Assembly: GCA_028718245.1 (NCBI GenBank)
Contig: JAQUME010000003.1
Location: 1-44,357, forward strand
DNA: 44,357 bases
Source of the DNA: Candidatus Omnitrophota bacterium
GTDB taxonomy: Bacteria; Omnitrophota; Gorgyraeia; Gygaellales; Profunditerraquicolaceae
Direction of reading: 5' to 3'
A program made the translations under genes and the position numbers. Of the stretch, positions 27,507 to 44,357 are shown one piece after another. The notes beneath the pieces are model-generated. The model was not told the origin of the DNA, did not search any database, and saw nothing but the letters and a program-made list of their open reading frames with translations. Numbering within the stretch: the stretch's first letter is position 1; each line of letters opens with the position of its first letter.

Positions 27507-27551
27507 GTTTTTAGGCCGTTAAATAGTTTTAGAAAGTATTTATCAACTAGG

Positions 27552-27597: not shown

Positions 27598-27610
27598 GGA
27601 GGTGAGAAAA

Positions 27611-27784
27611 ATGTTAAGGAGCAGGAAAGCGCAGAGTACTCTTGAATACATCATCATCTTCACGGCGGTAGTAGGAGCGATACTCTTGGCAGCCAATACC
27701 ATCATTAAGCCAAAGATGAACAGTATGCTTGAGCACGTAGCCGGTGAAGCGGAGACCGCGGTCAAACACGTCAGTTTCCAATAA
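27611..27784 (+). CDS. flp: Flp-type major pilin candidate
   Basis: A 57-residue prepilin, the right size for Flp. The short basic leader MLRSRKA precedes QSTLEYIIIFTAVVGAILLAAN; cleavage after Ala would leave Glu at +5 and Tyr at +6, as in Flp and in archaeal class III signal peptides. The mature part is one hydrophobic helix plus a short amphipathic tail. The track start (GTG 27602) lies within the Shine-Dalgarno AAGGAGGTGA; ATG 27611 is the start. It is first in the pilin array and the only member lacking the KRG motif, so it is the best candidate for the main filament subunit. Confidence 0.85.
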   Translation: MLRSRKAQSTLEYIIIFTAVVGAILLAANTIIKPKMNSMLEHVAGEAETAVKHVSFQ

Positions 27785-27811
27785 AGCGATCTTTTTAAGG
27801 AGGTGAGAAAA

Positions 27812-28150: not shown

Positions 28151-28176
28151 AATATAATGAGGAGGAGGTGAGTTGA

Positions 28177-28497
28177 ATGTTTAATAAATTTAACCGGAAT
28201 AAGGCGCAGACAACCTTGGAGTACGCCATCTTGATCGGGGTGATCGTTGCCGGGCTTATCGCGATGCAGGTTTACCTGAAAAGAGGTTACCAGGGCAAAT
28301 TAAAGGAGAGCGCCGACAGCATGGGCCAGCAGTTCTCTCCGGGATATACCACAAGTAAATACACGATCACCAATACTTCTACGTCTACCGAGGAGCTTAA
28401 AGATAAGGTAACCGTATCTACGATCGGAAGCCAGGAGAGCCAAAAAACAGGCACGGAAGATGTCGCTGCTTCCGATAAAGAGTTCTGGTGGAAGTAA
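28177..28497 (+). CDS. Pilin-like protein with KRGxQG motif
   Basis: 106 residues: leader MFNKFNRNKA, motif QTTLEY, helix, then MQVYLKRGYQGKLKESADSMGQQ and a Thr/Ser-rich tail ending in FWWK. It is preceded by GGAGGAGGTGAG. It is close in sequence to the products of 27812 and 30650, which share the SADxxxxxFSPG-type segment after the helix. The tail is shorter and ends in aromatic residues, suggesting a specialised surface. It is separated from tadB by 32 bp. Confidence 0.8.
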   Translation: MFNKFNRNKAQTTLEYAILIGVIVAGLIAMQVYLKRGYQGKLKESADSMGQQFSPGYTTSKYTITNTSTSTEELKDKVTVSTIGSQESQKTGTEDVAASDKEFWWK

Positions 28498-28529
28498 GAG
28501 CCGAGAGGGTAAATTTGGAGGTTTTGTAA

Positions 28530-29381
28530 ATGCCGATAAAAATATTCTTATTTTTAGTGGTTTTCGCCGGGGTCTTTTATCTTGCCAGCCTGGCATATCC
28601 TTTTTTTGAGGCGCTGATGGACCGCTGGCAGAGAAAGAGGATGGATAAAATTACCCCGAAACTGGACCGGATGTTCCTGGATATTCCTTTAGAGAAGCTG
28701 CTGCTGATCGATGTGCTTTCCCCCCTGGCCAGCGGGTTGCTGGTTTTTTTCATCAGCCGCAATATCTGGGCTGCTACGGCAGGGGCAGTTGTGGGGTTGG
28801 CTTTCCCTATCCTGATCATCAAACGGCTTGAGGCCATGCGCAGGCAAAAATTCGCCGCACAGCTTGTTGACGGGCTGATGATCTTATCCAGCTCTCTTAA
28901 GGCGGGATTAAGCCTCTTGCAGTCATTTGAGGAGTTGGTGCAGGAGATGCCCAATCCCATCAGCCAGGAGTTCGGCCTTGTCATCCGCCAGATGCAGATG
29001 GGCGTCTCTCTCGAGGAGGCGATAACCAAGCTGAAAGTGCGCATGCGGCTGGATGAGCTGGATATGGTCGTAACCGCGATGCTGGTGGCCAGGGAGACCG
29101 GCGGAGACCTTACGCAGACATTCTCCCGGGTAATCTACACTATCCAGGAGCGGAACAAGCTTATCGGCAGGGTCAAGGCGCTTTGCGTGCAGGCGAACAT
29201 GCAGGGGGTAATTATGTCGCTATTGCCCATTTTATTCGGGATATTCGTATATAAGGTTAATCCCGGTTTCTTCGATGTGTTCCTTAAGGATAATTTTGGA
29301 AGAGGGCTTATGCTTTACGCTATCATCTCAGAGATACTCGGCATTATTTTTATACGTAAATTGAGTAAGGTTGATATATAA
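28530..29381 (+). CDS. tadB: Tad inner-membrane platform protein TadB
   Basis: A 283-residue GspF-type protein. Two N-terminal membrane segments, a cytoplasmic domain with LVDGLMILSSSLKAGLSLLQSFEELVQEMPNPISQEFG and the canonical MVTAMLVARETGGDLTQTFSRV, and C-terminal membrane segments (MSLLPILFGIFVY, then LGIIFIRKLSKVDI) follow the TadB pattern. TadB and TadC together form the platform on which the CpaF motor acts. It is preceded by GGAGG. In many Tad loci tadB directly follows cpaF; here the mobile element and pilin genes intervene. Confidence 0.92.
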   Translation: MPIKIFLFLVVFAGVFYLASLAYPFFEALMDRWQRKRMDKITPKLDRMFLDIPLEKLLLIDVLSPLASGLLVFFISRNIWAATAGAVVGLAFPILIIKRLEAMRRQKFAAQLVDGLMILSSSLKAGLSLLQSFEELVQEMPNPISQEFGLVIRQMQMGVSLEEAITKLKVRMRLDELDMVVTAMLVARETGGDLTQTFSRVIYTIQERNKLIGRVKALCVQANMQGVIMSLLPILFGIFVYKVNPGFFDVFLKDNFGRGLMLYAIISEILGIIFIRKLSKVDI

Positions 29382-29394
29382 AAGGAGTATATAA

Positions 29395-30303
29395 ATGGAA
29401 TTAATCGTGGTGGTTTTACTTTTAGCGGTCAGCGTTTACCTCCTTATCCTGCAGTTCGGCTCCAAGGCATTCGGCTTGGAGAAGATGCGGCTGCCTGCCC
29501 AGGTATTTGACAGTAAAAAGGTAGAGATGGAGTTGAGCCAGGATAAGTATACGGTAAAGCCGGATAATACCTGGCTTCCCATTACTGCCAGGTTCAAAGA
29601 TTTTGAGAAGCGGATCCCCTTCTCCACCGAGGGGATAAGAAGGAGATTGATCAAGGCCGGCTTGCCGATGGGGGTATTGGAATTCCTGGCTTTTAAGGTA
29701 TTGGCGATTATTTTTGTCCCGGCTGTGGCTTTAATATTCCTTAGCGGTAATTTACCTAAGAATATGGTTTTTGCCGTTTCTCTGCTGGTGGGTTTCTTTA
29801 TCCCGGAGATGTGGCTGAATCAAAAGATAGGCAAGAGGCTGCACAGTATACGGCGCGACCTGCCCAACATAATTGACCTGTTGAACCTTTGCGTAAGCGG
29901 AGGCATGGACTTTATGCTGGCGGTAAACCGCGTGGTCAAGGATTTAAAACCCTGTGACCTGACCCGGGAACTGGGAGAGGTTTATCGTGAGACGCAGGTC
30001 GGTAAATCCAGGCGCGAGGCATTGAAGAATTTCGGCTGGCGGGTGGATATGCCTGAAGTGCATTCTTTCGTGCGCACGCTGATACAGGCCGACCGCATGG
30101 GCACGCCCATGTCGGAGGCATTGAATGTGCAGGCCGAGGAGATGAGAGTAAGGAGATTCCAGATGGGCGAGTCAATGGCATTGAAGGCGCCGATCAAGCT
30201 GCTCTTTCCCTTGTTTGCCTTCATTCTGCCGGTAGTTATGATCATTGTAGGAGGCCCGATAATCCTGCAGTTCTCGCGCGGGGGGATCAATTTCGGGTTC
30301 TAA
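29395..30303 (+). CDS. tadC: Tad inner-membrane platform protein TadC
   Basis: A 302-residue second GspF-type protein: N-terminal membrane segment, RLIKAGLPMGVLEFLAFK, RRDLPNIIDLLNLCVSGGMDFMLAVNRVV, the conserved FVRTLIQADRMGTPMSEALNVQAEEMR, and the C-terminal KLLFPLFAFILPVVMIIVGGPIILQF. It has the length and order expected of TadC. It starts 13 bp after tadB with an AAAGGAG ribosome-binding site and partners TadB in the assembly platform. Confidence 0.92.
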   Translation: MELIVVVLLLAVSVYLLILQFGSKAFGLEKMRLPAQVFDSKKVEMELSQDKYTVKPDNTWLPITARFKDFEKRIPFSTEGIRRRLIKAGLPMGVLEFLAFKVLAIIFVPAVALIFLSGNLPKNMVFAVSLLVGFFIPEMWLNQKIGKRLHSIRRDLPNIIDLLNLCVSGGMDFMLAVNRVVKDLKPCDLTRELGEVYRETQVGKSRREALKNFGWRVDMPEVHSFVRTLIQADRMGTPMSEALNVQAEEMRVRRFQMGESMALKAPIKLLFPLFAFILPVVMIIVGGPIILQFSRGGINFGF

Positions 30304-30307
30304 AGAG

Positions 30308-30457
30308 ATGAAAAGGCATATATCCGGACAAAGCGTCATAGAATATTTCGTGATCCTTACCTTGCTTATGGTATTGGTGGCCTCCTCCGGGTTTATAGAT
30401 ACAGTGCGCAACGCATTTTATGATTATTTCAACAGGGGTGTGGCGTATTTGAAATAA
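30308..30457 (+). CDS. Very short pilin-like protein (49 aa)
   Basis: Below the ORF-track cutoff. The leader MKRHISG precedes QSVIEYFVILTLLMVLVASSGF, then DTVRNAFYDYFNRGVAYLK. Gly at -1 and Glu at +5 match prepilin peptidase rules exactly. The tail YFNRG recalls the KRG motif of its neighbours. It starts 4 bp after tadC, so it is translationally linked. The size is that of a minimal Flp subunit, so it may be an alternative or minor pilin. Confidence 0.7.
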   Translation: MKRHISGQSVIEYFVILTLLMVLVASSGFIDTVRNAFYDYFNRGVAYLK

Positions 30458-30474
30458 AGAAGGGGGATAGGGGA

Positions 30475-30639
30475 ATGTTAAAGGTCCTTTATAACAGGCG
30501 GGCGCAGAATTTCCTGGAATATACTATGCTGGTAATAGTTATTGTTACGGCCTTATTGGCGATGCGCCAGTATATCCAGCGCTCCATGAACGCGCGCTTA
30601 AAGCAGATCCAGACGGAACTGAATGAATCAAAGAGGTAA
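30475..30639 (+). CDS. Short pilin-like protein (54 aa)
   Basis: Not in the ORF track because of size. The leader MLKVLYNRRA precedes QNFLEYTMLVIVIVTALLAMRQYIQRSMNARLKQ and a short charged tail NESKR. Glu at +5 and Tyr at +6 fit class III/Flp processing with Ala at -1. The MRQYIQRSMNARLK segment is aligned with MQxYxKRGxxGKxK of the larger paralogs. An AGGGGG-type ribosome-binding site precedes the ATG. Confidence 0.72.
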   Translation: MLKVLYNRRAQNFLEYTMLVIVIVTALLAMRQYIQRSMNARLKQIQTELNESKR

Positions 30640-30649
30640 AGGGGTAAAG

Positions 30650-30988
30650 ATGAAGAATACCGCCCAGTCCTTAATAGAGTATGTGGTTCTTTTCAGCCTG
30701 ATAGTGGCTGCACTTTTCGGAATGCAGGTTTATCTTAAGCGGGGGGTCGCCGGCAAGATGAAGAGTTCAGCCGATGAACTAAGCGGCGGTTTTTTCTATT
30801 CTCCCGGGGCAACGCAAGCCACGACTACTATAGATACGACAACCGCGATAACAAGCAAATCATATGTTACAGATGTCGCTGGTTCCACCGATTACAAGGA
30901 AAGCATCATGGAAACCACATTAAAAAGCGACCGTACGACTGCCCGCGAAGAAAAGACCTTGCCTTTCAGCGCGGAGCCGCAGAGGTGA
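30650..30988 (+). CDS. Pilin-like protein with KRG motif and Thr-rich tail
   Basis: 112 residues from ATG 30650: leader MKNTA, motif QSLIEYVVLF, helix, then MQVYLKRGVAGKMKSSADELSGGFFYSPG and a Thr/Ala-rich extracellular tail. The track start 30623 overlaps the previous gene; 30650 follows GGGGTAAAG and gives a normal short leader. The conserved SADxxxxxF(S/Y)SPG segment links it to the product of 28177, suggesting a shared fold after the helix. Confidence 0.8.
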   Translation: MKNTAQSLIEYVVLFSLIVAALFGMQVYLKRGVAGKMKSSADELSGGFFYSPGATQATTTIDTTTAITSKSYVTDVAGSTDYKESIMETTLKSDRTTAREEKTLPFSAEPQR

Positions 30989-30992
30989 TAAG

Positions 30993-31385
30993 ATGAAACG
31001 GGGAAGCTCGTTGATGGAGTATATGATAGTTCTGGGGATAATTTCCGCGGTCCTCTGGGGAATGAATGTTTATGTTAAGCGAGGGGTGCAGGGAAAGCTC
31101 AAAGACCTTACGGATTCATTTATAGGTAAGGAGCAGGAGACGGATATTTCGCCTACTGCCGAAACTGCCAGCAGCGCCAAGAGTGGATTTAGTTCAACCG
31201 CGGAGACCCAGGCATCCCTGGGCGGCGGCTGGAGTGTTTCAAGTTCGGACAAGATGGAGTATGAGGCGGAAAGCAAAATAACCGATACTGACGTGCCTTA
31301 TACATCAAGTGATCCTGTGCCTGCTGAAGAAGGGTATAGCGTTCCCGAACCGGCTAAGCCGCCGAAAGAAGGATCAGGCGGCTAA
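30993..31385 (+). CDS. Pilin-like protein with KRGxQGK motif and Ser/Pro tail
   Basis: 130 residues: very short leader MKRG, motif SSLMEYMIVLG, helix, then MNVYVKRGVQGKLKDLTDSFIG. The long tail is rich in Ser, Glu and Pro and ends PAKPPKEGSGG, likely extended outside the cell. Gly at -1 and Glu at +5 support processing. GAGGTGATAAG overlapping the previous stop codon is the ribosome-binding site. Confidence 0.78.
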   Translation: MKRGSSLMEYMIVLGIISAVLWGMNVYVKRGVQGKLKDLTDSFIGKEQETDISPTAETASSAKSGFSSTAETQASLGGGWSVSSSDKMEYEAESKITDTDVPYTSSDPVPAEEGYSVPEPAKPPKEGSGG

Positions 31386-31405
31386 AGAGGCAGGAGATGA
31401 TTAAA

Positions 31406-32170
31406 ATGATCTACACAAATAAGAAAGGACAGGCAGTAGCGGAGATGGCGATATTCGGCACCTTGATATTGCTTATCTTCGGAGTGCTGATCTCTTTCAT
31501 ACAACAGCTCAATGACCGGCAATATACGCAGATGGAGGCATTTCGCCGGGCATTGGAAAAGGCCAACTCCTACACTTCAGATGCTGATGACGGATCAGGG
31601 GCCTCTGTGCAGTACACCCTGGTGCAAAACAGACACCAGCTAAACCTCGGCGGCGGTTACCGGCAGGGCAGTAATGTTACTCAAACAGGTTCTGCCAATG
31701 TTTACTGGGCGATCCCTAAATCCCAAAAGGGCTCTTCGGCAGAGAGTTTGCTTGTATTCAAGATAAATGAAGATGAAGGGCAATTTGAATACAATGATTT
31801 TATTCCCGAAGCGCACAGAAGGATAGATGCCGATGGCGAGGAGAGGCCTACCTATTGGGTGCTGCAAACAGAAAATATGGCCACCGAATCGGATACGCTT
31901 TTCAGTGAAACGAATGTGAAAAGCGAAGATACTTTTGCGATCACCAATAAAAGGACTTCTAGGCTAAAGGATGATATTGTTACCGCTGTGCCGTACAAAA
32001 TAGTGGAAAAGAAAACCGGGGATAAGGACTACGAGAACACGGTAGAAGAGGGGATCCTGTATCAAGTGCGTCAGGGTGTCTATCTTGATCCGGAGGGCCA
32101 GTATAAATACAGCCAGGGTGCGGTAGGGAATGAAGTAACCAGGGAGAAGACATGGGTAACTCCATTTTAA
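31406..32170 (+). CDS. TadE-like minor pilin
   Basis: About 254 residues: leader MIYTNKKG, then QAVAEMAIFGTLILLIFGVLISF, with Glu at +5 followed by Met, the TadE variant of the motif. A large polar domain follows (QMEAFRRALEKANSY and beyond) with many Asp, Glu and Thr, ending near EVTREKTWVTPF. Normal TadE proteins are 150-200 residues, so this one is long. The track start 31397 abuts the AGGAG; ATG 31406 gives 9-bp spacing and is preferred. Its end overlaps the next gene by 19 bp. Confidence 0.72.
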   Translation: MIYTNKKGQAVAEMAIFGTLILLIFGVLISFIQQLNDRQYTQMEAFRRALEKANSYTSDADDGSGASVQYTLVQNRHQLNLGGGYRQGSNVTQTGSANVYWAIPKSQKGSSAESLLVFKINEDEGQFEYNDFIPEAHRRIDADGEERPTYWVLQTENMATESDTLFSETNVKSEDTFAITNKRTSRLKDDIVTAVPYKIVEKKTGDKDYENTVEEGILYQVRQGVYLDPEGQYKYSQGAVGNEVTREKTWVTPF

Positions 32171-32400
32171 AACGCGGCCAAAGCACGACCGAAATAGCAT
32201 TTGTTTTTGCGGGGATAGTGCTTTTGTTTGTGGCGATAATGCAGATATGGTTCTGGGGCAATAAGCAGATCGTGCAGCGCCAGAAAGCTTATAATGCCGG
32301 CAGGGTAACCGCCGGGACATCTTCGGATAGTTATACCCTGCAGTGGCCGGTTTACAAGCCGGAAGAACTTAAAGAGGAATCGGTTTTGAAAGGGCAGTAG
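32152..32400 (+). CDS. Small TadE/TadF-like pseudopilin
   Basis: 82 residues: leader MGNSILKRG, motif QSTTEIAFVFAGIVLLFVAIMQIWFW, then NKQIVQRQKAYNAGRVTAGT and a short tail. Glu at +5 with Ile at +6 and Gly at -1 fit prepilin processing. It is too short for a full TadE head domain. It overlaps the upstream TadE-like gene, implying coupled synthesis, and the two may interact. Confidence 0.72.
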   Translation: MGNSILKRGQSTTEIAFVFAGIVLLFVAIMQIWFWGNKQIVQRQKAYNAGRVTAGTSSDSYTLQWPVYKPEELKEESVLKGQ

Positions 32401-32425
32401 GGACTGTCCTTAAGGAAGGCGACAA

Positions 32426-33796
32426 ATGTTTACATACTTTCACGATCACAAAAATAAATACAACAAGGGCCAGCTTGCCCCCATCTATATCCTTATCCTG
32501 GTGATCGTGATCATTATGGCTATGGTCACGGTTAATTTATCCAAGGTAGCGATGGTCAAGACCGATACCTCAAACTCTGCCGATGCCGGGGCCATTGCTA
32601 CGGGCGCGATCATGGCAAATGCTTTTAACAGCGCGGCTGTGCAAAACAGCCAGATGATAACCACGTATTGGTCAGCCTATGCTTCGATAGCCGTTATGTT
32701 TTCATATGCTTTTGTTAAGCTGACTATGGCTTATACCTCTGCATCTTTTGCATTGGCTCGGGCAACATTTGCGTTGGGGTTGCAACCACCTTGTCAAACC
32801 TCCTGCGGAGCTTACGCGATTATGGAGGCAACCTACCTTCCTTTGACTTCAGCACTCTTAAATATAGCTTCGGTTATTACAACTATTTATGCTATCGGAA
32901 TCGCCATTCTTAGCGCCAGTGTGGTCCAGCATTATTATTATGCTTCTATCAGGAAGATGGCGATAAAAGGCAGAAGCTCTTCTATAAGGAATGGCCACGG
33001 GTTTGTTTTCTCCAACAGCGGCACAGGCCAAAAACTTAAGGCAGGAAGCCCTCCTGCCGATGCGGGGGATTCTTTGAAGAGGAACGGCTACAGGGACTCT
33101 TATGTTAATTTCCTGGATGGTATAGGAGATGACGAATATTATAATTATTCCTGGAAGGATGGGGAAGACAGGTCGCATTCCGTGGATTCAAGGGTACATA
33201 CTAATAAGGTAGAGGATTTTGAATTAACAGTGGCGGTTTTGCCCTCTTTTGCAGAGACAGCAGCTCTGGCTGCTGCCAAATATCTTCTTGGAACAGTCGT
33301 GACCAATTTAACTTTAGTGAAGGCTGACTATATAGCCGCGGAAGGTGAGTTTGCTTTGGCATGCGAGAATTTTCTATGTTGTAACCCCACTCCTGCAGGA
33401 GCTGCTTGTTGTATTGCCTGCGACGCTCTCGCATTAAAGGGGAAGGGGTGGTTAATCCCCGCCATAGCGAATAATTCTGCCGACCTTATGATAATGACGG
33501 GAGTCTTCGCTTTGCTAGTCGGCGCATTGGCAGGTTTATTGCCCGGCCCGACAATTACCGCCAGCGGGGAATGGGATGATGCCATGTTTTTTGACTGCTG
33601 GGTAAATGATATCAAGCATGACCACCTGGTGCGGGTTGATACAAAGCAAACTCATGCGGGAGGGGACCTCGGGCTTTGGAAGAGCAGTTACCCCGATACT
33701 GCCAGCTACGCGGTGGTTGATTTTTCGGGAAGAGGAACTATATTCCCTCCTAACCCAAGATATGGTTCAGACATAGTTGAGGTAGACAGTAACTAA
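32426..33796 (+). CDS. TadG-like pilus protein
   Basis: A 456-residue protein with an N-terminal KG-QLAPIYILILVIVIIMAMVTVNL segment followed by KTDTSNSADAGAIATGAIMANA, the typical TadG N-terminus where paired small residues follow the membrane helix. Unlike the pilins it has no Glu at +5, as in TadG proteins that stay anchored. Several further hydrophobic stretches occur between residues 85 and 170 and around 360-375. A Cys cluster is seen near residue 315 (CENFLCCNPTPAGAACCIAC). No VWA domain is recognised, unlike some TadG proteins. It is preceded by AAGGAAGG. Confidence 0.68.
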   Translation: MFTYFHDHKNKYNKGQLAPIYILILVIVIIMAMVTVNLSKVAMVKTDTSNSADAGAIATGAIMANAFNSAAVQNSQMITTYWSAYASIAVMFSYAFVKLTMAYTSASFALARATFALGLQPPCQTSCGAYAIMEATYLPLTSALLNIASVITTIYAIGIAILSASVVQHYYYASIRKMAIKGRSSSIRNGHGFVFSNSGTGQKLKAGSPPADAGDSLKRNGYRDSYVNFLDGIGDDEYYNYSWKDGEDRSHSVDSRVHTNKVEDFELTVAVLPSFAETAALAAAKYLLGTVVTNLTLVKADYIAAEGEFALACENFLCCNPTPAGAACCIACDALALKGKGWLIPAIANNSADLMIMTGVFALLVGALAGLLPGPTITASGEWDDAMFFDCWVNDIKHDHLVRVDTKQTHAGGDLGLWKSSYPDTASYAVVDFSGRGTIFPPNPRYGSDIVEVDSN

Positions 33797-33807
33797 GGAG
33801 GAGCAAA

Positions 33808-34710
33808 ATGTTTTTCAGGCTTAAAGTTGCGCAATTATTCGGCCTCATTCTTTTAGTGATGACCATAACCGCGCATCCTCTTTATTCTGCCTGGTGGGAT
33901 AGGAATACCATACCGCTTCCTTCGGGAACAGAGGAGGTATTCCAGGAGACAAGAAATATTTCGGGCACAGAGTTTGTGCTTAAGTATTATACCAATTCCC
34001 AGGATGCCAAAGTCATAAGTGATTTCTTCCGTTCAAAGCTTACTGCTTTGGATTGGAAGGAAAAAGAATTGTTAAAGGAAATGGCCCAGATACCCGGCTT
34101 AAAGGTTCCCGCCTCTGTAGAGGATATGCTGGCTTCGAATTCTATCTTTGAAAAAGGGGAGGAGACAGTTATGATAAACTTCCTTCCCCGGGGAGCGGTC
34201 CAGGACGGAAAGACCAGGTTTACTGTTGCACGGGGGAACACAGAGGCCCAAAAAAAGCCTGAGGAGGATGATTTTATACCCAGATTATCGGGCAAGCCCA
34301 AGCTTGATATTGCCCCGGTTTATCCTGGGGCAGCTTTGATCTCCCTGTCGGAGAATACCGGTTTTATGCGGGCAACCTATTTTTCAAAAGATGATATTGA
34401 TAAAGTAGGCGAGTTTTATAAGAGCAAAATGCTTAATTACGGCTGGTCCCTTGCAGAAGAGAAACCGCTTCAGAAGCTGGATTCAGGGGAGGTTGACCTC
34501 TCCAGCTTGTGCCCCGATTGCCCTAAGGATAAGAATATCCAGCAGGCAATCAAGCCTGTGGATATGGAGGTGCAAGAGCTTAATTTCTCCAACGAAGCGG
34601 GGGATGTATGTATTGTAGCCCTTGGAGTTACCGGCCCGAAAGAGGGGGTTGGAGACAAATTAAAGAATACAACCACTATTATGGTGCAATATGAAAAAGC
34701 CGGGAAATAG
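33808..34710 (+). CDS. Secreted protein with two repeated alpha/beta modules
   Basis: 300 residues with a signal peptide (FGLILLVMTITAHPLYSA). Two related modules are visible. One is near residues 25-90 (VLKYYTNSQDAKVISDFFRSKLTALDW) and the other near 170-225 (RATYFSKDDIDKVGEFYKSKMLNYGW); both follow the pattern Y-Y/F-T/S-x-D-x-x-K-V-x-x-F-(F/Y)-(R/K)-S-K followed by W. A short Cys pair CPDCPKD lies at about 233. No family name can be given. A strong AAGGAGGAG ribosome-binding site precedes it. It overlaps the coiled-coil pilin gene by 20 bp, suggesting the two products work together. Confidence 0.7.
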   Translation: MFFRLKVAQLFGLILLVMTITAHPLYSAWWDRNTIPLPSGTEEVFQETRNISGTEFVLKYYTNSQDAKVISDFFRSKLTALDWKEKELLKEMAQIPGLKVPASVEDMLASNSIFEKGEETVMINFLPRGAVQDGKTRFTVARGNTEAQKKPEEDDFIPRLSGKPKLDIAPVYPGAALISLSENTGFMRATYFSKDDIDKVGEFYKSKMLNYGWSLAEEKPLQKLDSGEVDLSSLCPDCPKDKNIQQAIKPVDMEVQELNFSNEAGDVCIVALGVTGPKEGVGDKLKNTTTIMVQYEKAGK

Positions 34711-35590
34711 AGCGCAAACTTTTACTGAATACGCTATCCTTATAGCCGTAGTGGCGGCTGTCCTCTTTGGAATGAGGATATACATGGAGAGGGCTGTTCA
34801 GCAAAAATTCCGGGAGAGCGCGGATGTATTCGGCGAAGGGGAGCAATACGCCAAAGGGATTACCCAGGCTGCCTATAAAGATGATCCGGGCGCTCAACCG
34901 GTAACCCCTCCTTCCGGTAAGGATATCTGTCCTGGGGTTTTAAGTAAGGCAGAGGCCTTAGAGAATGAGATAGCGGATTTAAATGACCGCATAGCCTCAT
35001 TTGAGCAATCCAAGCGTGATTTAAATAAGTCGGCAGAGGATTTGAATACGCAGATCCCGGTATTAAGAGAACAGGCACGGCAGCTAAGGATACTTGCAGA
35101 CGGTTATGAGGCCCAGGCCGACGCAAAGGACGCCCAGGCTTTGGCTAAAAGGAACGAGGCAAAAGCTAAGAACGCCCAGGCGGATGGTAAGCAGAAAGAG
35201 GTTGATAACTACAAAAAGGATTTCCCGTTGTGTTTTACCTTTGGGTGCGGCACAAGCTGTGAAGAGGGGGACAATTGTTGCTGCGTGCTTAATGCCGTAG
35301 CAGCGTTAGAGGCTGAGATAGCCAGTTTGCGCAACGAAGCTGCTTTATTGAACGCCCAGGCAGCGGTATTGGAGGATGAAGCAAGAGCCCTGCATGCGAA
35401 AGCAGCCTCTTTGTACAAAGCAGCGGATGATGCCGACAGCGCAGCTAATGACCTGGTAGAAACACAGATCCCCAGCTTAGAAGACCAGGTTAAATCATTT
35501 GAAGAAGATATTGAAAAAGCCAAGAATGAGATTAAGCCAAAAGAGGAGCAAATAGAAAACTTTAAGAAGAATTATCCCAGTTGCTTCTAA
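34691..35590 (+). CDS. Pilin N-terminus fused to long coiled coil with Cys-rich hinge
   Basis: 299 residues. The leader MKKPGNRA and QTFTEYAILIAVVAAVLFGMRIYMERAVQQKFRESADVFG reproduce the array's pilin module. From about residue 80 two long heptad-like alpha-helical stretches follow (KAEALENEIADLNDRIASF and later AALEAEIASLRNEAALLNAQ), separated by a hinge CFTFGCGTSCEEGDNCCC near residues 180-195. Both the hinge and the C-terminus contain the pattern YxxxxPxCF (NYKKDFPLCF, NFKKNYPSCF). It could be a stalk or tip subunit projecting from the filament, or a periplasmic ruler. It is translationally coupled to the preceding gene. Confidence 0.75.
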   Translation: MKKPGNRAQTFTEYAILIAVVAAVLFGMRIYMERAVQQKFRESADVFGEGEQYAKGITQAAYKDDPGAQPVTPPSGKDICPGVLSKAEALENEIADLNDRIASFEQSKRDLNKSAEDLNTQIPVLREQARQLRILADGYEAQADAKDAQALAKRNEAKAKNAQADGKQKEVDNYKKDFPLCFTFGCGTSCEEGDNCCCVLNAVAALEAEIASLRNEAALLNAQAAVLEDEARALHAKAASLYKAADDADSAANDLVETQIPSLEDQVKSFEEDIEKAKNEIKPKEEQIENFKKNYPSCF

Positions 35591-35601
35591 GGAGAAGAAA
35601 G

Positions 35602-36675
35602 ATGTTAAGTAAACCAAGAGGATTGACATTCAGGCTTATTTCAGCTTCCTTGATATTTTTCTTCGCGGTTTCTTTTACCTTTCCTAAAGAATCACTGGCT
35701 TATAGAAGCAGAGATGGCGGAGGGGAAATCGCGGAATTTGATTTCGGCAAATGGGCGTTAGGTACCGCGGCAGGCGTGGTCTCTTCTACTTTAGGCAGTG
35801 CTATTATTTCAGGGGTAGGAGGTTCTTTGGGTTGGACACCAGGCGGTAGTTTTATGGAGTCTCTCTCCAGCTTAAAAGGAGCTGATACCTGGGCAAGCAA
35901 TTTTGTAAACAGCACGGCGGTAGGCCAGGTGCAGAACGCGATAGGAATGATGGGTAACTATTATGGGTGGGACCCGGGTTCTACCATTTTTCTAAGCTCG
36001 GTAGCAGGAGGGGTTGTAGGAGGAGGGTTAGCTCCAGGACATTTTGGCAGCTCGCTTGGCAGCGGTGTAGGTGTTTCCCAGAGTTTCAACGGCTCGTTAA
36101 ACTGGCTTAAAGGTGTGGGCATAGGCCTTGTTGAGGGAAGTGTTGAAGGCGCCATACTTATGAGCGCGGCGGATAAAAAAGGTCGTATTGATCCCATAAT
36201 AGGTAATGTAGCGAATTTAACCGGAAGCCTTGTTACAGGCGGCCTGGTAGGGGGCCTCACGGGTCCTACAGGAGAATTCAGTTTTGGGAACATGGGAGAT
36301 TTTAATCTTGCTAAGGCAGGCCAGGAAGCCATGCGCGTCACATTAAGAAGTATCCCCTCAGCCGGGCTTAGCATGGGGGTCCAGTCCATTACCAGAAGCA
36401 TGGATAAACAGGATGCTTATATCATCAAAAATGCCTTTTCAGGGGCTTATTATATGATAAATGTCCCCACAGGCTATTTAGTGGATAGTAAGATTGTGCC
36501 CTCTGTGTTTGGGGAGAGGTCGCGGGTTCGTATTAAAAACACAGAATTACCATCACCGCTATTAAAAGAAACTTTAAATCCAAGTTCCAAGATTCCTTCA
36601 GTGTCAAATTATAGCCAGTCAAATCCACCAGGATTTTCTCTTGAGAAAAGAATTGAAGATATAAGCACTAGATAA
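35602..36675 (+). CDS. Secreted glycine-rich hydrophobic protein
   Basis: About 357 residues from ATG 35602, which follows AAGGAGAAG; the track start 35581 lies inside the previous gene. The signal peptide ends near ESLAY. The body alternates Gly-rich hydrophobic helices (GTAAGVVSSTLGSAIISGVGG, SSVAGGVVGGGLAPG, GSLVTGGLVGGLTGP) in the style of RHS-associated or glycine-zipper membrane domains. The last 90 residues are polar (GYLVDSKIVPSVFGERSRVR). No family is assigned. It is the last gene of the pilus transcript and lies 630 bp before the giant gene. Confidence 0.65.
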   Translation: MLSKPRGLTFRLISASLIFFFAVSFTFPKESLAYRSRDGGGEIAEFDFGKWALGTAAGVVSSTLGSAIISGVGGSLGWTPGGSFMESLSSLKGADTWASNFVNSTAVGQVQNAIGMMGNYYGWDPGSTIFLSSVAGGVVGGGLAPGHFGSSLGSGVGVSQSFNGSLNWLKGVGIGLVEGSVEGAILMSAADKKGRIDPIIGNVANLTGSLVTGGLVGGLTGPTGEFSFGNMGDFNLAKAGQEAMRVTLRSIPSAGLSMGVQSITRSMDKQDAYIIKNAFSGAYYMINVPTGYLVDSKIVPSVFGERSRVRIKNTELPSPLLKETLNPSSKIPSVSNYSQSNPPGFSLEKRIEDISTR

Positions 36676-36978: not shown

Positions 36979-37008
36979 TTGACAAGCACAAAAATTATGT
37001 GTTATACT
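36979..37008 (+). promoter_or_regulatory. Sigma70 promoter of the giant gene
   Basis: TTGACA, 18-bp spacer, TATACT, with the start expected near 37015 and the riboswitch beginning a few bases later. An AT-rich palindrome (TATAATA-AA-TATTATA, 36928-36943) lies upstream; its role is unknown. Confidence 0.78.
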
Positions 37009-37019
37009 TTGAGCGTAAT

Positions 37020-37135
37020 ACAGATAAGTAGCGAAAGGGTAAACCCCGAGTAATCGGGGGGCACAAAGCCACGGATCCGAAGATCAACTCAAAGTAACAA
37101 GATAAGGACAGCCGGGCTGCCGAATATCGGAAGGA
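37020..37135 (+). ncRNA. Cyclic-di-GMP-I (GEMM-I) riboswitch upstream of giant gene
   Basis: Clear match to the GEMM-I layout: AGCGAAAGGGTAAACC, hairpin CCCCGA-GTAA-TCGGGG with a GNRA tetraloop, GGCACAAAGCCACGG core, a variable arm, and GGACAGCCGGGCTGCCGA as the final helix. Downstream, GAATATC can pair with GATATTT and CCGA with TCGG just ahead of TTTTTATTT. This gives a possible terminator that uses the aptamer 3' strand, so control by transcription termination is plausible. Whether the ligand switches expression on or off cannot be read by eye. Confidence 0.85.
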
Positions 37136-37305
37136 AGCAGGATATTTGACAACTCGGTTTTTATTTAATATCTTATTAAGTAGTTTTAGAAACGTTTTAT
37201 TAAATTAAAACCACATGTCCTTAAACAACAGAACAAAGATCATCAAAGCAGCTGCTGGGGTAAGGGGAAAACTGTTTTTCGCCTTTTATACATTAGGTAA
37301 TGACA

Positions 37306-40300
37306 ATGCATAAAAACCCTGAACCAAAAAACCAGGCAGAATCAAAACCAGGCCCGCAGGAGAAAACACGTTTTCAATCCAGCTTCAAGGCCTGGATCAG
37401 AATCGTAGCTTTCATAGTAGTTGCGGTCTTTCTTCCGGAGCAGGCAGCTCAAGCCGTAGAATATGATTGGCGCGTGCTTTGGAGCAAACCCGGAACACTC
37501 ACCTCATACTCCCCGAACTTAATAAAAGACCCGCGCCAGTTAGACATAGCAGTAGCAGTCAGGAACATCCTCAAAGACATTTCAGGCAAACCCGTAACCG
37601 CAATAAAGATCTCCCCCACTTTAACCATCAATTTAGAAAAGCCGCTAAACATCTCCAAGCAAAGGATAGAAGAGATCTACAATTGGCTGGCGGGAAGGCC
37701 CTGCGGCGCAAAGGCGCTTTATGATTTCTTAGCTTATAAAGGCGTTGCCGCGCAGGAGCAGGATATCGCGGTTATGGCCTTGACCACCGACATTTTAAGC
37801 GGGGTCCTTAAGCCGGAAGGCAACCCGAAGATCATCAAAAGCTCCCTTTATGCCTTATCCCGCGCCTCTGAATTCTTCGGCGCCAAGCTTTACCCGGTAA
37901 AATTTGATTTAAAGCAGGGCCTGACACCGAAAGGTGCTGTCCCCGCGTTACCCTTCATCGCTCATTTCAAAGCCGAACACTACATCCTGGTAACCCGCAT
38001 AACCGATGACAGGGTTTATTACGCGGATGAGCACAAAGAGGAGTTTCTGCCCAAGGATAAATTCTTAGATAAATTCAGCGGATACGCGCTGGTTTCCTCG
38101 GTCCCGGAGCAGGCGCAACTGCTCTCTGATAAAGAAGCGCAAGGAATAAAGGGCGCTAATGAATATGGCTATCAGGAAGATACGCCTGAATGGAATGGCG
38201 ATTGGGGTAATTATGACTATGGTTTTGATGACGGTTCTTATGAAGCAGCAATCGCGCAGGATCCTTATTATAACAGTGCAGCTTTCACGAATTACAACAT
38301 ACCGGATACCTATGGTTATAACTCTAACTTCAATCCTCCCTCTATTTCAAATTACTCCAATTACAATGTAAATTACAACGACGCGATAGCAATAGCCCAA
38401 AACGGAGGGACGATTTCGATTCCCACCCCAGTAGGCTCTACCGTCTTCTATAATGACTCAGGTATGGTTAAGATGGAGGTTTACAATGATGACCTGCGTA
38501 CAGTCAACGTAAGCCAGGTGACCGACAATTTAACGATCCCGCTGGCACAAGGAACCTGGGATAACAACAATAATTTTAGTATGCATGATATCGGGGCAGC
38601 AGGCGGGAATACTTTTGCCGCGTCAAATTTTCAAAATCCGCTTATGAACAATACCGTTAACTCAAATATAGCGTTTGATCCCAACGGCCCCACGATCGCA
38701 AGGGTTAAAAACGGGGAGACCATCGGCCTTTCCACTCCTACGGGATCTTTAGTGCTTTATCAGGATAATGGGATCACCAAGATGGAGAATTATAATGATG
38801 ACCTACACACAGTCAGTGTAAGCGCCGTGACCGACAACTTGACGATCCCGCAGGCCGGGAATATGGGAAATATTATTGAAGACGGAAGCAATAAGTGGGC
38901 ATGGAAAGTGGTTAATAAGGACATATATGTAGCCCAATTGGATGGAGGGGGCAACATCGGTGAGTTTAATCCTATGGGTAGAAGGACATTGTGGGGGCTT
39001 TTTTCGGGAGGGTTCTATCAGGATGTTTCCGGACCATTTAATCCGTCAATAGGCGATGAAGCTGCGCAAAAAATATTATCTACCGTATATGGTCCGAATG
39101 TTTCAAGCCGGCTTGATGATGTTGATTTCTCCGTAGGTATTTCAGGCCGTGAAGGGCAGGTTTATTTACACACATCCGGCGCGCCAAATCCCCATTATAC
39201 CGTTGTTTCCTCAAGTGATAAATTTGACGCGTTAAGTTTTGCCGTTAATAATCCTAATGGAGTCAGCGGAAGAGAATATTTCAATCCCGCAAGCGGCCAT
39301 ATTTTAGCAGAAACTATCGGAAGGGGTTTGTTTGATTCTCCAAATAGCACTTTAAGCGGTATTGCCCCCATGGGAGAGGCCATAGGGCAGTCGATGTATG
39401 GCCAGTTTACCACAACAATTGATTGGAATAACGGATATGTATCTTTTGCCGGCACAAAACCTGACGCGCTGTTGCAGGTAGTAAACGGCGCTCCGCAAAT
39501 GACTGCCGCGATAAATTCGGCGTGGAGCAGAGACAACAATGGGAAACTTTTAGAAATAGCCGGTCCTAATGGGACAAGCTTAAATAATGTCTTCTTAACT
39601 CCGGCAAAGGCATTCTTTGTTTCAGGTGGAGGCGGACCCGCAAAATCTTCTAAAGAGTTATTTGATGGGGTCTATAGTTTTGATGCCCAGAGTTTTAGGG
39701 GCCAGGGTCTGGATGCGATAGGCATTGATCCGTCGAGAGGTGGATCTTTTAATTTTATGGGCACCCGGCCGCACGCTACTTTAGGGGACTATGTGGAAAA
39801 TATCACAGGCTCTCCTACTCTTTACATGGTGCAAACAGATAGGGGGCTGAAAGAGCGCGTGCTTGATAACGCCCAATGGATGAAAATCAACAGAGGAGAC
39901 GGAAATTTAGTTATTGGCGCAGGAGCCAATCAGCCGGCATCACTTAGATTTGACGGTGTGGCGCAGGGAGAAACAATTAGCTTTAGAGAATCAGCGTCTT
40001 TTCTCGGAGGATATAAAGAAATTCTCCATAAAAATGTTTCACCCGTTCAAGAGTTAGTAGCTGACTATGGGCTGGGCAGAAGCTCAGCAAAGTTTACAGA
40101 CGGTTCGCATGACTTGATTGGAAGTGATGGAACGGTAAAGAGTTTTTCTTCCTACGGGGAATTAATAAACTTTTTAGATAACGGCCAGGTAGCGGCCCGT
40201 TCATTCTTTACAGAGAAGCCGGAAAGGGATGGCCCTAAAGATTCCGGTAAACAATCAGAACGGATATTAAACCCTGTTTTTGCAAACGCGCATATCAAGG

Positions 40301-43300
40301 TTGCAAACGCGAGAGGAGAAAAAGGAATATATTTTACTGCTACAGGCCTGGAATGGGGGTCTTTATTGAAATATGGCAGTACAGAATTTGAGCCGGAAAT
40401 AGGCCAAGGCACCCGTTTTTCCAGTATTAATCCAGATGAGAAAGTGAGGATAGGCAATAGTGATTGGCAGAATCTTTCCCAAAACCAGATCCGGGGAGGA
40501 GGTATTAGCCATGTCGATAATACTGGTTTTATTATTAACGAATCCGGTAAATCTCTGCCCATTATAAGAAACTACGAGGTAAACAATAAAATAGTGACTC
40601 TGGGAATTACAGATGGCGGCTCGAATTCTACAAGCAGCGCGCAAATCAACGGCATCTTAAATGGAAAAGTTGTTTCATTTGTTAGTGCCGCGGATCCCAA
40701 AAAAATTCAGTTAAGCGCTGATAAGTTAATATATGACGAAACAGGGGTGGTGATAGGGCGTCAACTTATAGATCCTCTGGTCCGCGAAAAAAGCAATATT
40801 AAGATTACAACCGGGACTCAAGCCCTGGATAAACTGTATTACAACGGCAATGCCTTGATGATCAGCGGAACCAACGGTTATATAGATGCTGTTGGGTTTA
40901 AGCCAGTAGAACGCAATCCAAATTCTCCTGCTTTGACGGAAAAAGAAGGCCCTGTAGAGTCAAATTTAAAGGTGACAAATATCCCGGATGGCTTGAGATT
41001 CAGTTCCATAGGACAAGACCCGACAGGGGCTCCTCTTGTTGCAGAATTTGAATTGGATTGGGCAAGAAGCTCATTACGCTCTACCTGGCAAGAAGCAGGG
41101 GCGCAGAACTGGATAACTGAACAAACCGCTATATTTGGAGAAACCTGGCAGCCGCACCCAGGCATAGAAACCGGACTTGTTTATTTTCAGGAATATCCGG
41201 GCAAAGATGATAAGGTTTCTGTTTTACCCGCGGGCGGCGCAGCCGAATTCACTACAGATCAATATCTAGAGGGGTATAGAATCAAGGGGACATATTCCGG
41301 AGCAAAGACATTAGACAGGACTGCTTTGGCCGAGAGATTAACAGGGGCGATTCAAACACAATTAGGGATATTTCAAAAAGAAGCAGCTAAGGCAAGCGCT
41401 AACGGCCAAGACCCGTTAGCTTCTTTAGAAAAGCTCCAGGCAGATAAATCAAGAGGCATCGTATTCCAAAAAGAGGAATTACAAGATCTTATAAAAGGCG
41501 ATAAAACCATAGCCAGTATCGCTGCCGCGGCTTTTGAAAGAGAGAATGCGGGAAGATTAGAGCAAGGTATCAGCCAGAATTTTAAAATGTCAGCCACAAT
41601 GAGTTTGGCAGCCGGTTTCTACCCGTGGGTAAGCAGGGATGGAAGCATATACGGTGACAGCGTTGACATAAGAAGCGGCGTGAGCCTTGAGGGAGTCAGC
41701 TCTGCCGATTCTACCGTGATCGTTACCACTCATGATGGACGTAAAATAGATCTATCCCAGTCCGGCATGCCGGTCAGCTACAGCAGCGGACAATTCAGGG
41801 TTAATCCTGCGGATGGGCTTAACTGGTTTTCTTTCCCGCTTAATACCGGCGGCGGCGAGGCGCCAAAACGCGAAGGAAATGTAACCGTAAAAGCCACTGA
41901 GTCCCGGTTAGTAGATAATTATTCTTCCTCCAACGGCATACCTGTAAATGCCAGCCTGCCGCGGTATATAGGCAATCCTTTGCTTTATGGCCAGGACAAG
42001 GTGATCAACCTAAATCTGGGAGCAGCGCAGCCGAATGTGATGAGTTTTAAGGGATATGATTTTGAAGGAAAGGTTCCTTTTTATGTCGGCGGGGAATTGG
42101 TAGGAGTTGAGGGCAGATTAACATTTTATGAGGATGGCGAGAAGAAAGGCCAGCCCAATTTAAGCCAAATCAAGAGCGTAGAATATCAATATAATCAGCC
42201 GGGATTTTTAATTGAAAGAAGAGAAGGCGCCAGCCCTGTTTTTATTCCTGCTGTGCATCTGGCAGGAAGCACTTATACAAACATGAAATTGGGGGATGAA
42301 AACCCCAGGTTTGTCCCTGCCGGAGCAAATCCCGATATAAACAACTATCTTAAGGTAAGCGAACAGGCCTTTTTCTTCAAAAACGGCTTACAAATAGCGG
42401 ATGTCATTAATAAAAATGTTTATGATGCAAATTCAGGCCTATTTAAAATAAGCATTGATACCAAAGGTGCCCCGATCGACTTTTTCAGCCGAAATGAAGT
42501 TCCGCCTACCCAGCGCCAGGAGCCTAACTTTGATCAGTTTATGAAAGAATCCATTATGACAGCACTGGGCGCACAAATGTTATCCTTCGAAGGCAGCAGG
42601 TTACAATTAGCGGATTTAGTGACTCCTTCGCTGTTAGCGAGCCGGGTAGATGAACAGTACCATACATCTATGAATATACCAAACGCCTCGCAATACCGTG
42701 TAAGCGGATATGATAAAGACGGCAGGGTTTTGGGCTTTGCTTATACCGGCAGCGGTAAACTTGGTTTTGGCGCCGGATTCGGCAACGACCTTATTCCTTT
42801 AGCAGGCACACCCGGTTCGCATTTTAAAGTTGACAGCGGAGAGTTCCAGGTATACAGGGATAAGCCATTTATTTATGCCGGGAAAGAAATTTCAGGAGGA
42901 CTGGAAGAGAATTTTATCGGCCAGCGTTCTTTAACTTATTCCGGCAGCCAGCCGTACAATGTATATATAGATCCTGAATATGGGACCTTTGCCAGCGCCG
43001 GAACGCGTTACAGGGAAGAGCGCACCTTCAATGGAGAAGACATTGGTAATAATAAAATTTTTACCGGGATAAGCGTGGTAGAAGGCAAGCATAAGACATA
43101 CTTCGAGAGAGAGAATACAAACTGGTTGAAGCATGGAATACGAAATGAAACAGGCCTTGATTCAAGGACCTCTGAACTGGTAAACAACGGGAAACCTACC
43201 CTTACGCCCTTTAGCCGTAAAGAATATATAAGCTTAGAAAGGGAGGGGAATAAGATATCTTCAGATAGTTTTCTTGAAGGGATTGTCCGTTTAATGCCCG

Positions 43301-44357
43301 AGAAAGGAAGAGTGGATTTCGTAAATTATGCCGTTGATCATCTGTATTTGTTCCAGAATAAATATCTGGTAGGCAAAGGCAATTACTGGATGCCTCATTC
43401 GACATTTGAGTCATATGGCGGCGGAAGCGGGAGTGAGGTTAAGGCAGGCCCCAGCGATGCGTTTCAACGTCCGAATCAAGCAGGAGGGGTTACCTATACC
43501 GGAGACCGGTTAGCTTTTAATATAGATTGGCAGGGCACATCATTATCGCTGCCAACAGCCTATTTTTGGGCGCCTGGTTCAACTATAAGGTTAATGGCCG
43601 GAGACAGATTTGTCAGCAACATTGAGATTAACGACGCCAAGGGTTTGATCACATTCCAAAAAGAATCAAGCATAGTTGATGTAAGAGGAGATTCAACCAT
43701 ATTTTATGCGCAGCAAACATCTCCGGACGGCAAAACAGTAACAGTGCCTTTTTATGAATCCGGGCACTGGTCGAATGGGACCTCAACAGATGGCGTTTAC
43801 TCCCAAAGTCCCGCCCCTAAAGGTAATCCCCAAGCCGACCTCATTAAATATATTTACCAGGGAGAAATGAGCGGCCCGCTTGCGGTTAAGTTTACTCAAG
43901 ATGCCGTGGCTTACGGGATGATACCTCAAGAGGAAAGTTTCCGCTATCAGGGCTATCAGAAGCTTGTGAATAAGACAACCTTTGTTCCCGACGCGGAGAA
44001 AGGGTTTATTACCGGAAAAAGCAGAATTGTGCCTGATCTTGAGCAAAATCCGAACTCTTTAACTTTAGAAGCCAAGATACGCGGCGGCGGTTTTCGCCAA
44101 GGATGGAATTATATATATGGTAAAGAAAATAGCATTGTGGGTTGGGGTCCCATTATCACAGACGGAAAGATTGGCAATGTGGGTCCCAAATCTCCGCTGG
44201 GCCTGGCTTTATTAACCCGAGGGCTGGAAATCTCAGGGGTTAGAAAAGGAAGCAGTGGAGAAGCCGATACCTATAAAGTAGACGCGCAGACATTAGCTTA
44301 TAATTTTGGGAATAAAGCTATAAATTTTGACAACCATCTTTTGCAGTTTAACGGGGT
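37306..44357 (+). CDS. Giant exported protein with N-terminal C39-like papain-fold domain (partial, runs off window)
   Basis: An uninterrupted frame of 2350 codons to the right edge; the track omits it because no stop is present. ATG 37306 has AGG 8 bp upstream; ATG 37300 is the only alternative because an in-frame TAG ends at 37296. Residues 31-50 form a signal-anchor with AQA at a likely cleavage site after a long charged leader. Residues 130-260 resemble a C39-type cysteine peptidase: CGAKALYDFLAYKG (Cys 133), AEHYILVTRI (His 225), VYYADEH (Asp 241). A Tyr/Asn-rich stretch and a duplicated 46-residue module follow, then more than 1800 residues of beta-rich sequence without recognised domains. 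It is probably a cell-surface or secreted adhesin or toxin-like protein. Confidence 0.85.
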   Translation, partial: MHKNPEPKNQAESKPGPQEKTRFQSSFKAWIRIVAFIVVAVFLPEQAAQAVEYDWRVLWSKPGTLTSYSPNLIKDPRQLDIAVAVRNILKDISGKPVTAIKISPTLTINLEKPLNISKQRIEEIYNWLAGRPCGAKALYDFLAYKGVAAQEQDIAVMALTTDILSGVLKPEGNPKIIKSSLYALSRASEFFGAKLYPVKFDLKQGLTPKGAVPALPFIAHFKAEHYILVTRITDDRVYYADEHKEEFLPKDKFLDKFSGYALVSSVPEQAQLLSDKEAQGIKGANEYGYQEDTPEWNGDWGNYDYGFDDGSYEAAIAQDPYYNSAAFTNYNIPDTYGYNSNFNPPSISNYSNYNVNYNDAIAIAQNGGTISIPTPVGSTVFYNDSGMVKMEVYNDDLRTVNVSQVTDNLTIPLAQGTWDNNNNFSMHDIGAAGGNTFAASNFQNPLMNNTVNSNIAFDPNGPTIARVKNGETIGLSTPTGSLVLYQDNGITKMENYNDDLHTVSVSAVTDNLTIPQAGNMGNIIEDGSNKWAWKVVNKDIYVAQLDGGGNIGEFNPMGRRTLWGLFSGGFYQDVSGPFNPSIGDEAAQKILSTVYGPNVSSRLDDVDFSVGISGREGQVYLHTSGAPNPHYTVVSSSDKFDALSFAVNNPNGVSGREYFNPASGHILAETIGRGLFDSPNSTLSGIAPMGEAIGQSMYGQFTTTIDWNNGYVSFAGTKPDALLQVVNGAPQMTAAINSAWSRDNNGKLLEIAGPNGTSLNNVFLTPAKAFFVSGGGGPAKSSKELFDGVYSFDAQSFRGQGLDAIGIDPSRGGSFNFMGTRPHATLGDYVENITGSPTLYMVQTDRGLKERVLDNAQWMKINRGDGNLVIGAGANQPASLRFDGVAQGETISFRESASFLGGYKEILHKNVSPVQELVADYGLGRSSAKFTDGSHDLIGSDGTVKSFSSYGELINFLDNGQVAARSFFTEKPERDGPKDSGKQSERILNPVFANAHIKVANARGEKGIYFTATGLEWGSLLKYGSTEFEPEIGQGTRFSSINPDEKVRIGNSDWQNLSQNQIRGGGISHVDNTGFIINESGKSLPIIRNYEVNNKIVTLGITDGGSNSTSSAQINGILNGKVVSFVSAADPKKIQLSADKLIYDETGVVIGRQLIDPLVREKSNIKITTGTQALDKLYYNGNALMISGTNGYIDAVGFKPVERNPNSPALTEKEGPVESNLKVTNIPDGLRFSSIGQDPTGAPLVAEFELDWARSSLRSTWQEAGAQNWITEQTAIFGETWQPHPGIETGLVYFQEYPGKDDKVSVLPAGGAAEFTTDQYLEGYRIKGTYSGAKTLDRTALAERLTGAIQTQLGIFQKEAAKASANGQDPLASLEKLQADKSRGIVFQKEELQDLIKGDKTIASIAAAAFERENAGRLEQGISQNFKMSATMSLAAGFYPWVSRDGSIYGDSVDIRSGVSLEGVSSADSTVIVTTHDGRKIDLSQSGMPVSYSSGQFRVNPADGLNWFSFPLNTGGGEAPKREGNVTVKATESRLVDNYSSSNGIPVNASLPRYIGNPLLYGQDKVINLNLGAAQPNVMSFKGYDFEGKVPFYVGGELVGVEGRLTFYEDGEKKGQPNLSQIKSVEYQYNQPGFLIERREGASPVFIPAVHLAGSTYTNMKLGDENPRFVPAGANPDINNYLKVSEQAFFFKNGLQIADVINKNVYDANSGLFKISIDTKGAPIDFFSRNEVPPTQRQEPNFDQFMKESIMTALGAQMLSFEGSRLQLADLVTPSLLASRVDEQYHTSMNIPNASQYRVSGYDKDGRVLGFAYTGSGKLGFGAGFGNDLIPLAGTPGSHFKVDSGEFQVYRDKPFIYAGKEISGGLEENFIGQRSLTYSGSQPYNVYIDPEYGTFASAGTRYREERTFNGEDIGNNKIFTGISVVEGKHKTYFERENTNWLKHGIRNETGLDSRTSELVNNGKPTLTPFSRKEYISLEREGNKISSDSFLEGIVRLMPEKGRVDFVNYAVDHLYLFQNKYLVGKGNYWMPHSTFESYGGGSGSEVKAGPSDAFQRPNQAGGVTYTGDRLAFNIDWQGTSLSLPTAYFWAPGSTIRLMAGDRFVSNIEINDAKGLITFQKESSIVDVRGDSTIFYAQQTSPDGKTVTVPFYESGHWSNGTSTDGVYSQSPAPKGNPQADLIKYIYQGEMSGPLAVKFTQDAVAYGMIPQEESFRYQGYQKLVNKTTFVPDAEKGFITGKSRIVPDLEQNPNSLTLEAKIRGGGFRQGWNYIYGKENSIVGWGPIITDGKIGNVGPKSPLGLALLTRGLEISGVRKGSSGEADTYKVDAQTLAYNFGNKAINFDNHLLQFNG
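38410..38547 (+). repeat. Giant-protein module repeat, copy 1
   Basis: Encodes TISIPTPVGSTVFYND to NLTIPLA; matches copy 2 (38720-38856) at both protein and DNA level, including CAATGATGACCT versus TAATGATGACCT. Confidence 0.8.
38720..38856 (+). repeat. Giant-protein module repeat, copy 2
   Basis: Encodes TIGLSTPTGSLVLYQD to NLTIPQA. Shared core KMExYNDDLxTVxVSxVTDNLTIP, about 310 bp after copy 1 in the same frame. Confidence 0.8.

Follow-up and report, generated by a model that had tools for sequence, protein, structure and literature searches.

The stretch of DNA analyzed here (the window) comprises 44,357 nucleotides (nt) of contig JAQUME010000003.1 from the metagenome-assembled genome of a Candidatus Omnitrophota bacterium, the last part of which is occupied by the beginning of a giant open reading frame (ORF). 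We propose that positions 36979-37313 are the 5' leader of this gene for a giant secreted protein, and that this leader is probably a cyclic di-GMP-I (c-di-GMP-I, or GEMM-I) riboswitch of the ON type, tied to the attached state of the cell. The promoter, the aptamer, the terminator that overlaps it and the giant ORF, which had been pointed out in a preliminary description of this DNA, are real and are conserved together. The features of the leader and of the visible part of the gene are as follows.

36979-37008, forward strand: promoter of the sigma-70 type, TTGACA-N18-TATACT, with 11 of 12 consensus matches, also present before homologous leaders
37028-37124, forward strand: c-di-GMP-I (GEMM-I) aptamer matching RF01051, with the equivalents of G20 and A47 (Vc2 numbering) present
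37112-37166, forward strand: intrinsic terminator overlapping the aptamer (5' arm 37112-37124, the aptamer 3' strand; 3' arm 37145-37157; T-run 37158-37166)
37172-37205, forward strand: conserved A/T-rich segment CTTAnTAAGnAGTTTTAnAAAnnnTTTA, shared with homologous leaders
37215-37313, forward strand: upstream ORF, conserved and 32 codons long, MSLNNRTKIIKAAAGVRGKLFFAFYTLGNDNA, which overlaps the start codon of the giant ORF
37257-37267, forward strand: motif GGGGTAAGGGG within the upstream ORF, almost without variation across the family
37300-44355, forward strand: first 2352 codons of the giant ORF, open to the contig end (44357)
37378-37455, forward strand: signal-peptide region FKAWIRIVAFIVVAVFLPEQAAQA, with a hydrophobic segment at amino acids (aa) 27-47 and AQA before VEYDW
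37672-38103, forward strand: C39 cysteine-peptidase-like domain, with Cys135 and His227 of the ORF invariant in 48 homologs

The aptamer had been called a near-textbook GEMM-I RNA, and the RF01051 covariance model matched it at 37028-37124 with 61.8 bits, well above the gathering score of 35, and with an E-value of 7.8e-10 over the whole window. Its conservation was addressed with an alignment of 41 leaders collected upstream of the homologous giant-gene head. When the c-di-GMP-I structure was placed on these leaders, 97.8% of the cells were paired versus 86.1% in shuffles, and none of 500 shuffles matched the score; moreover, 10 of the 20 aptamer pairs had changed on both sides, a signal that was destroyed by sliding the partner strand. 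Both the model match and the covariation, the two checks on which the preliminary description had made the aptamer depend, thus came out in its favor. The ligand-contact nucleotides of c-di-GMP-I riboswitches have been named previously (PMC4744006; PMC11218506). The G20- and A47-equivalent nucleotides were invariant in all 41 aligned aptamers, and C92 is one of the two C residues in the CC of GGGYUGCC, of which the second was invariant and the first was kept in 40 of 41. The related c-di-GMP-I-GGC model (RF03167) gave the window aptamer a score of 58.9, 0.1 bit under the cut-off of 59, and was scored above its cut-off by most homologous leaders, many of which scored best with it. In our reading of this model, its defining nucleotide is a G at the A47 position, where the giant-gene RNAs have an invariant A (41 of 41), so that the match owes more to overall shape than to the diagnostic nucleotide; the leaders were therefore kept under c-di-GMP-I and the GGC class was rejected. 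Judged by its sequence, the window aptamer is an ordinary c-di-GMP-I member.

One nucleotide, G20A, can retune GEMM-I RNAs, as is known from work on the GEMM-Ib riboswitches, and the ligand might accordingly be another cyclic dinucleotide such as 3',3'-cyclic GMP-AMP (3',3'-cGAMP); a related leader in the same locus (27338-27464, described below) has an A at that place. However, the giant-gene aptamers hold G at position 20 and A at position 47 throughout, and enzymes with GGDEF domains occur in every relative searched (30 of 30, with six such domains in this genome). We thus regard another ligand as quite unlikely, and specificity for cGAMP was not favored, as none of the 41 leaders has the diagnostic A. 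Of 58 relatives, 53 had RF01051 matches, in many cases several, and together with the GGDEF proteins these matches indicate that c-di-GMP signaling is general in these genomes. The one further RF01051 aptamer of this genome lies on another contig (L033, G000:C80, positions 1872-1951) and precedes a secreted-looking protein of 482 codons with repeats resembling BNR/sialidase-type repeats. A copy of the aptamer core motif AAAGCCACGG was also observed just 5' of the aptamer in many leaders (L071, L066, L057, L059, L076, L081, L094 and L095), and the motif stands alone, without an aptamer, before a terminator in another family (L214 and L228).

The overlapping terminator, previously offered as a possibility, proved to be real. 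It was recovered by folding as a hairpin of -18.1 kcal/mol followed by a U-run (z -2.45), and it was absent from the list of the consensus scan because its loop is beyond the 8-nt limit of that scan. In the homologous leaders, CCGGGYUGCCGAA, the 3' part of the aptamer, forms a stem with UUUGACARYYCGG, and UUUUUAUUU comes directly after the latter. In the 32 distinct arm pairs, pairing was seen in 341 of 416 cells versus 325.8 in shuffles, a value reached by none of 2000 shuffles, and the stem showed compensatory swaps from U-A to C-G, from G-C to A-U and from A-U to U-A. Without ligand, the terminator fold is the more stable one, with -37.0 kcal/mol for the window leader versus -29.4 kcal/mol for the fold with an intact aptamer, and the order is the same in nearly all homologs. 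The terminator and the aptamer are mutually exclusive, so that ligand binding should permit read-through, and we predict a transcriptional ON switch for c-di-GMP, of which the ligand and the direction are inferred. At low c-di-GMP, the aptamer 3' strand CCGGGCUGCCGAA would pair with UUUGACAACUCGG to form the intrinsic terminator, leaving the giant gene untranscribed; at high c-di-GMP, the folded aptamer would retain its 3' strand, the terminator would not form, and the polymerase would then read through the short upstream ORF into the giant ORF. Of the cyclic-dinucleotide control suggested earlier, the aptamer with its conserved contact nucleotides thus stands, and the ligand and the direction of the switch are predictions. 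An OFF switch or a translational mode of action, with a hairpin that is not a terminator, could draw on the roughly 135 nt of leader past the hairpin, where the A/T segment, the upstream ORF and GGGGTAAGGGG could carry a second layer of control. That alternative is rather improbable, however, as the 5' arm of the hairpin is also a strand of the aptamer, a T-run follows, the stem covaries, and no competing antiterminator of the kind needed for an OFF switch was seen.

The predicted ON switch resembles known systems. The Bc3-5 riboswitches of Bacillus thuringiensis have the same aptamer fold, contact nucleotides and ON logic, and measurements on these RNAs, including Bc4, showed that the terminator uses P1, part of P3 and the binding-site C (the C92 equivalent) and that c-di-GMP prevents its formation (PMC4759541). 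Vc1, upstream of gbpA in Vibrio cholerae, is likewise an ON riboswitch with a secreted target, a colonization factor turned on by c-di-GMP (PMC4744006), whereas the Omnitrophota target is a giant gene that ends a tight adherence (tad) locus. Unlike in the known c-di-GMP-I ON riboswitches, a conserved upstream ORF with GGGGTAAGGGG stands here between the terminator and the gene, and the P3 apex differs from that of the known c-di-GMP-I riboswitches in being a long variable loop.

The promoter scan placed the -35 element TTGACA at 36979-36984 and the -10 element TATACT at 37003-37008, with an 18-nt spacer and a TG preceding the -10 element; the consensus promoter of the preliminary description is therefore upheld, and from its near-consensus sequence the RNA 5' end should lie at about 37015; in the proposed model, transcription begins roughly 20 nt ahead of the aptamer. 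The same promoter is carried by the homologous leaders, aptamer-less ones included. A second promoter in the terminator arm (TTGACA at 37146) was rejected, as it was a scan match only and its -10 element, judged by eye, was not conserved. One A-C mismatch in the terminator stem (37145-37157 in the window, and in homologs) was kept in 29 of the 32 arm pairs, preserving the TTGACA sequence.

Beyond the terminator, most loci hold an in-frame ATG 30-45 nt before GGGGTAAGGGG, and in most loci the upstream ORF stops within about -18 to +14 nt of the giant start. The overlap of the giant start with the end of this ORF makes translational coupling probable. The letters of GGGGTAAGGGG are conserved at third codon positions as well, and the motif is thus probably an RNA-level signal; it is not a genome-wide repeat, with one copy in 1.2 Mb. 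These features raise the question of whether the upstream ORF could be the main regulator, acting by leader-peptide attenuation with the aptamer merely fine-tuning. The upstream ORF and its motif persist without the aptamer in two genomes (G019 and G020), and the conservation at third codon positions points to a nucleotide-level role; however, the upstream ORF is fused in frame with the giant ORF in several genera, which misfits a separate leader peptide, and we consider this explanation unlikely.

The aptamer was kept at 48 of the 55 family loci with readable upstream DNA (hand count). Several observations weigh against a c-di-GMP ON switch before the giant gene. First, the aptamer was lost or degraded at seven of the 55 loci (G019, G020, G028, G062, G086, G090 and G117) with the gene and the promoter kept, so the switch is not essential for having the gene. 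Second, a GEMM-I leader was not found before the giants of other families, either at 27 loci by a non-Rfam search or at 20 loci by Rfam. Third, one group within the genus has lost the outer C-G pairs of the terminator and has a weak stem. Finally, the folding energies given above come from a model without ligand or cotranscriptional kinetics. Most aptamer-less loci hold remnants or clean deletions beside an intact promoter. Among these natural losses (L102, L103, L063, L077, L098 and L099), the aptamer was cleanly deleted in G019 and G020, replaced by a plain hairpin in G062, half gone in G086 and degenerate in G117 and G028. Such losses could mean that the riboswitch is a decaying relic and that the giant gene is effectively constitutive or otherwise controlled. 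The retention of the aptamer at the great majority of loci speaks against this, as do the compensatory changes in both aptamer and terminator, which indicate selection across genera, and decay is an extremely improbable explanation.

The class members without a GEMM-I leader include the ortholog in G180. In this genome, contig C1 holds a frame of 39,687 codons that begins directly behind position 29832. The giant ORF of Ca. Velamenicoccus archaeovorus LiM is 39,678 aa long and its tad locus lies at 12382-29832 (PMC10066038). On the basis of the length of the frame and its start, G180 is almost certainly LiM. The claim that a riboswitch controls the giant protein was thus sustained within the family, where the two are conserved together, but it does not extend to the class orthologs outside this one family, LiM included. 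The giants of another family, that of G180 included, share a different conserved leader, GTGTTCTGTGGCGGGACAC...GAGGAAAGGAGGACGTAGG, about 150 nt before the start and without an Rfam counterpart (L222, L221, L223, L220 and L217), which is possibly a new structured RNA.

The giant frame was expected to have at least 2350 codons, and its 2352 codons are ended only by the contig end, with 7.06 kb visible in the window; giant ORFs of Omnitrophota are defined by one open frame of more than 20 kb. Its broad conservation is limited to the first ~290 aa, that is, the signal peptide and the C39 domain. Profile comparison matched this domain to 6mpz (E 0.00018) and to ComA chains (E 0.0014), and its Cys and His align with the catalytic residues of these proteins; by sequence it is a C39-type peptidase domain, with predicted activity. 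In the C39 peptidases of PCAT/ComA transporters the domain precedes an ABC transporter, whereas here it follows a signal peptide and opens a giant ORF. The head was found in 56 of the 108 family genomes; a wider profile search, to which shorter C39 proteins also responded, gave matches in 126 of the 246 genomes that represent the class. Complete ORFs with the same head encode 35,006 aa (G119), 30,181 aa (G120), 13,262 aa (G067), 7,593 aa (G121) and 3,935 aa (G026); the giant of G101 exceeds 57,000 aa and is incomplete at the contig end, and those of G010 (14,791 aa) and G040 (42,912 aa) each span one run of N. The bodies are mostly unrelated between genomes and lineage-specific: even within one genus, the window genome (G000) and G010 matched at 83% over residues 1-286 and showed no similarity beyond. 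The product would be exported via its N-terminal signal peptide, with the C39-type domain and a very long body behind. The long open frame of the supposed single giant surface protein is thus established, but for its location the signal peptide is the sole indication of export, and some giants hold enzyme domains of a cytosolic type.

Embedded GGDEF domains with RYGGEE[F/I/M] signatures were observed in the giants of G119 (L148-L153), G120 (L230-L234), G121 (L235-L236) and G040 (L242-L248), and the 35,006-aa frame of G119, which is free of N, also contains ABC ATPase, HMGL, sigma-70, radical SAM, patatin, GNAT and HEAT regions. In addition, an SSPV linker recurs at the protein level in the giants of G120, G121, G004, G010, G067 and G040 (59 copies versus 1.4 expected), often at domain edges; it is absent from G119. 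SSPV may be a plain linker or a processing site. Varied codons encode its copies, and a DNA repeat or recombination site was rejected for this reason. It is conceivable, though very doubtful, that the fixed head (riboswitch, upstream ORF, signal peptide and C39 domain) driving unrelated bodies is a c-di-GMP-gated platform for outsized chimeric secreted proteins, some of them carrying cytosolic domains that are still catalytically intact, among them GGDEF domains that might feed the same signal, and with self-cleavage by the C39 domain into polyprotein-like units.

The surroundings of the gene bear on its role. Two further features of the window are relevant here.

18783-36675, forward strand: complete tad pilus locus (CpaB-like, secretin, TadZ/TadA fusion, Flp-type pilins, TadB, TadC, TadE/G-like)
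27338-27464, forward strand: tentative second, divergent GEMM-like leader before pilin genes, with an A at the G20-equivalent place

The giant gene lay 3' of a tad pilus locus at all 22 loci examined; in G101 and G103, one additional gene separates the riboswitch from the giant. Both c-di-GMP and the tad pilus are classic markers of the change from the free to the attached state. As the gene stands at the 3' end of the pilus locus, the most likely purpose of the switch would be that a costly giant protein is made only in the attached, high c-di-GMP state. For the LiM giant ORF, a 3-fold higher level of its peptides is reported in those cells that were attached to larger ones (PMC10066038). This supports a contact role for the protein but says nothing of a role for the riboswitch. 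The adhesion or contact role first suggested from the sequence alone therefore gained support from both the tad locus and the attached cells of the LiM ortholog. The divergent leader at 27338-27464 had no Rfam match. Such a pilin-gene leader occurs with its own promoter and terminator in seven genomes (the window, L170, L163, L165, L178, L181 and L179), in which the G20-equivalent nucleotide, assigned by eye, was A in four (the window, G010, G103 and G085) and G in three; from this sequence, its ligand may differ from c-di-GMP. A tRNA gene (18314-18388) lies directly 5' of the tad locus, a possible integration site.

Giant ORFs and riboswitch-controlled adhesins are each already known. A 2023 preprint by West-Roberts et al., cited in PMC12057145, is said to deal with giant ORFs of Omnitrophota. 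Giant ORFs of the same phylum and size class were described by Seymour et al. (2023, PMC10066038), where the giants are called poorly conserved and the words "riboswitch" and "cyclic" are absent; in contrast, we found a shared 290-aa head across the class. No description of the combination of riboswitch, conserved upstream ORF, giant head and tad locus was found in the literature, in a search that did not cover West-Roberts et al. 2023.

Omnitrophota are thought to include predators and parasites of other microbes, and the host family consists of tiny uncultured bacteria. The giant ORFs of this phylum are among the longest genes known, without identified regulation so far, and a small-molecule RNA switch would be one that lends itself to in vitro tests with no need for a culture. 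The conserved head allows orthologous giant genes to be recognized across the class, Ca. Velamenicoccus archaeovorus included. Taken together, the leader would link the giant protein to c-di-GMP and the tad pilus, and synthesis of this very large exported protein is probably coupled to the choice of attaching to a surface or to another cell.
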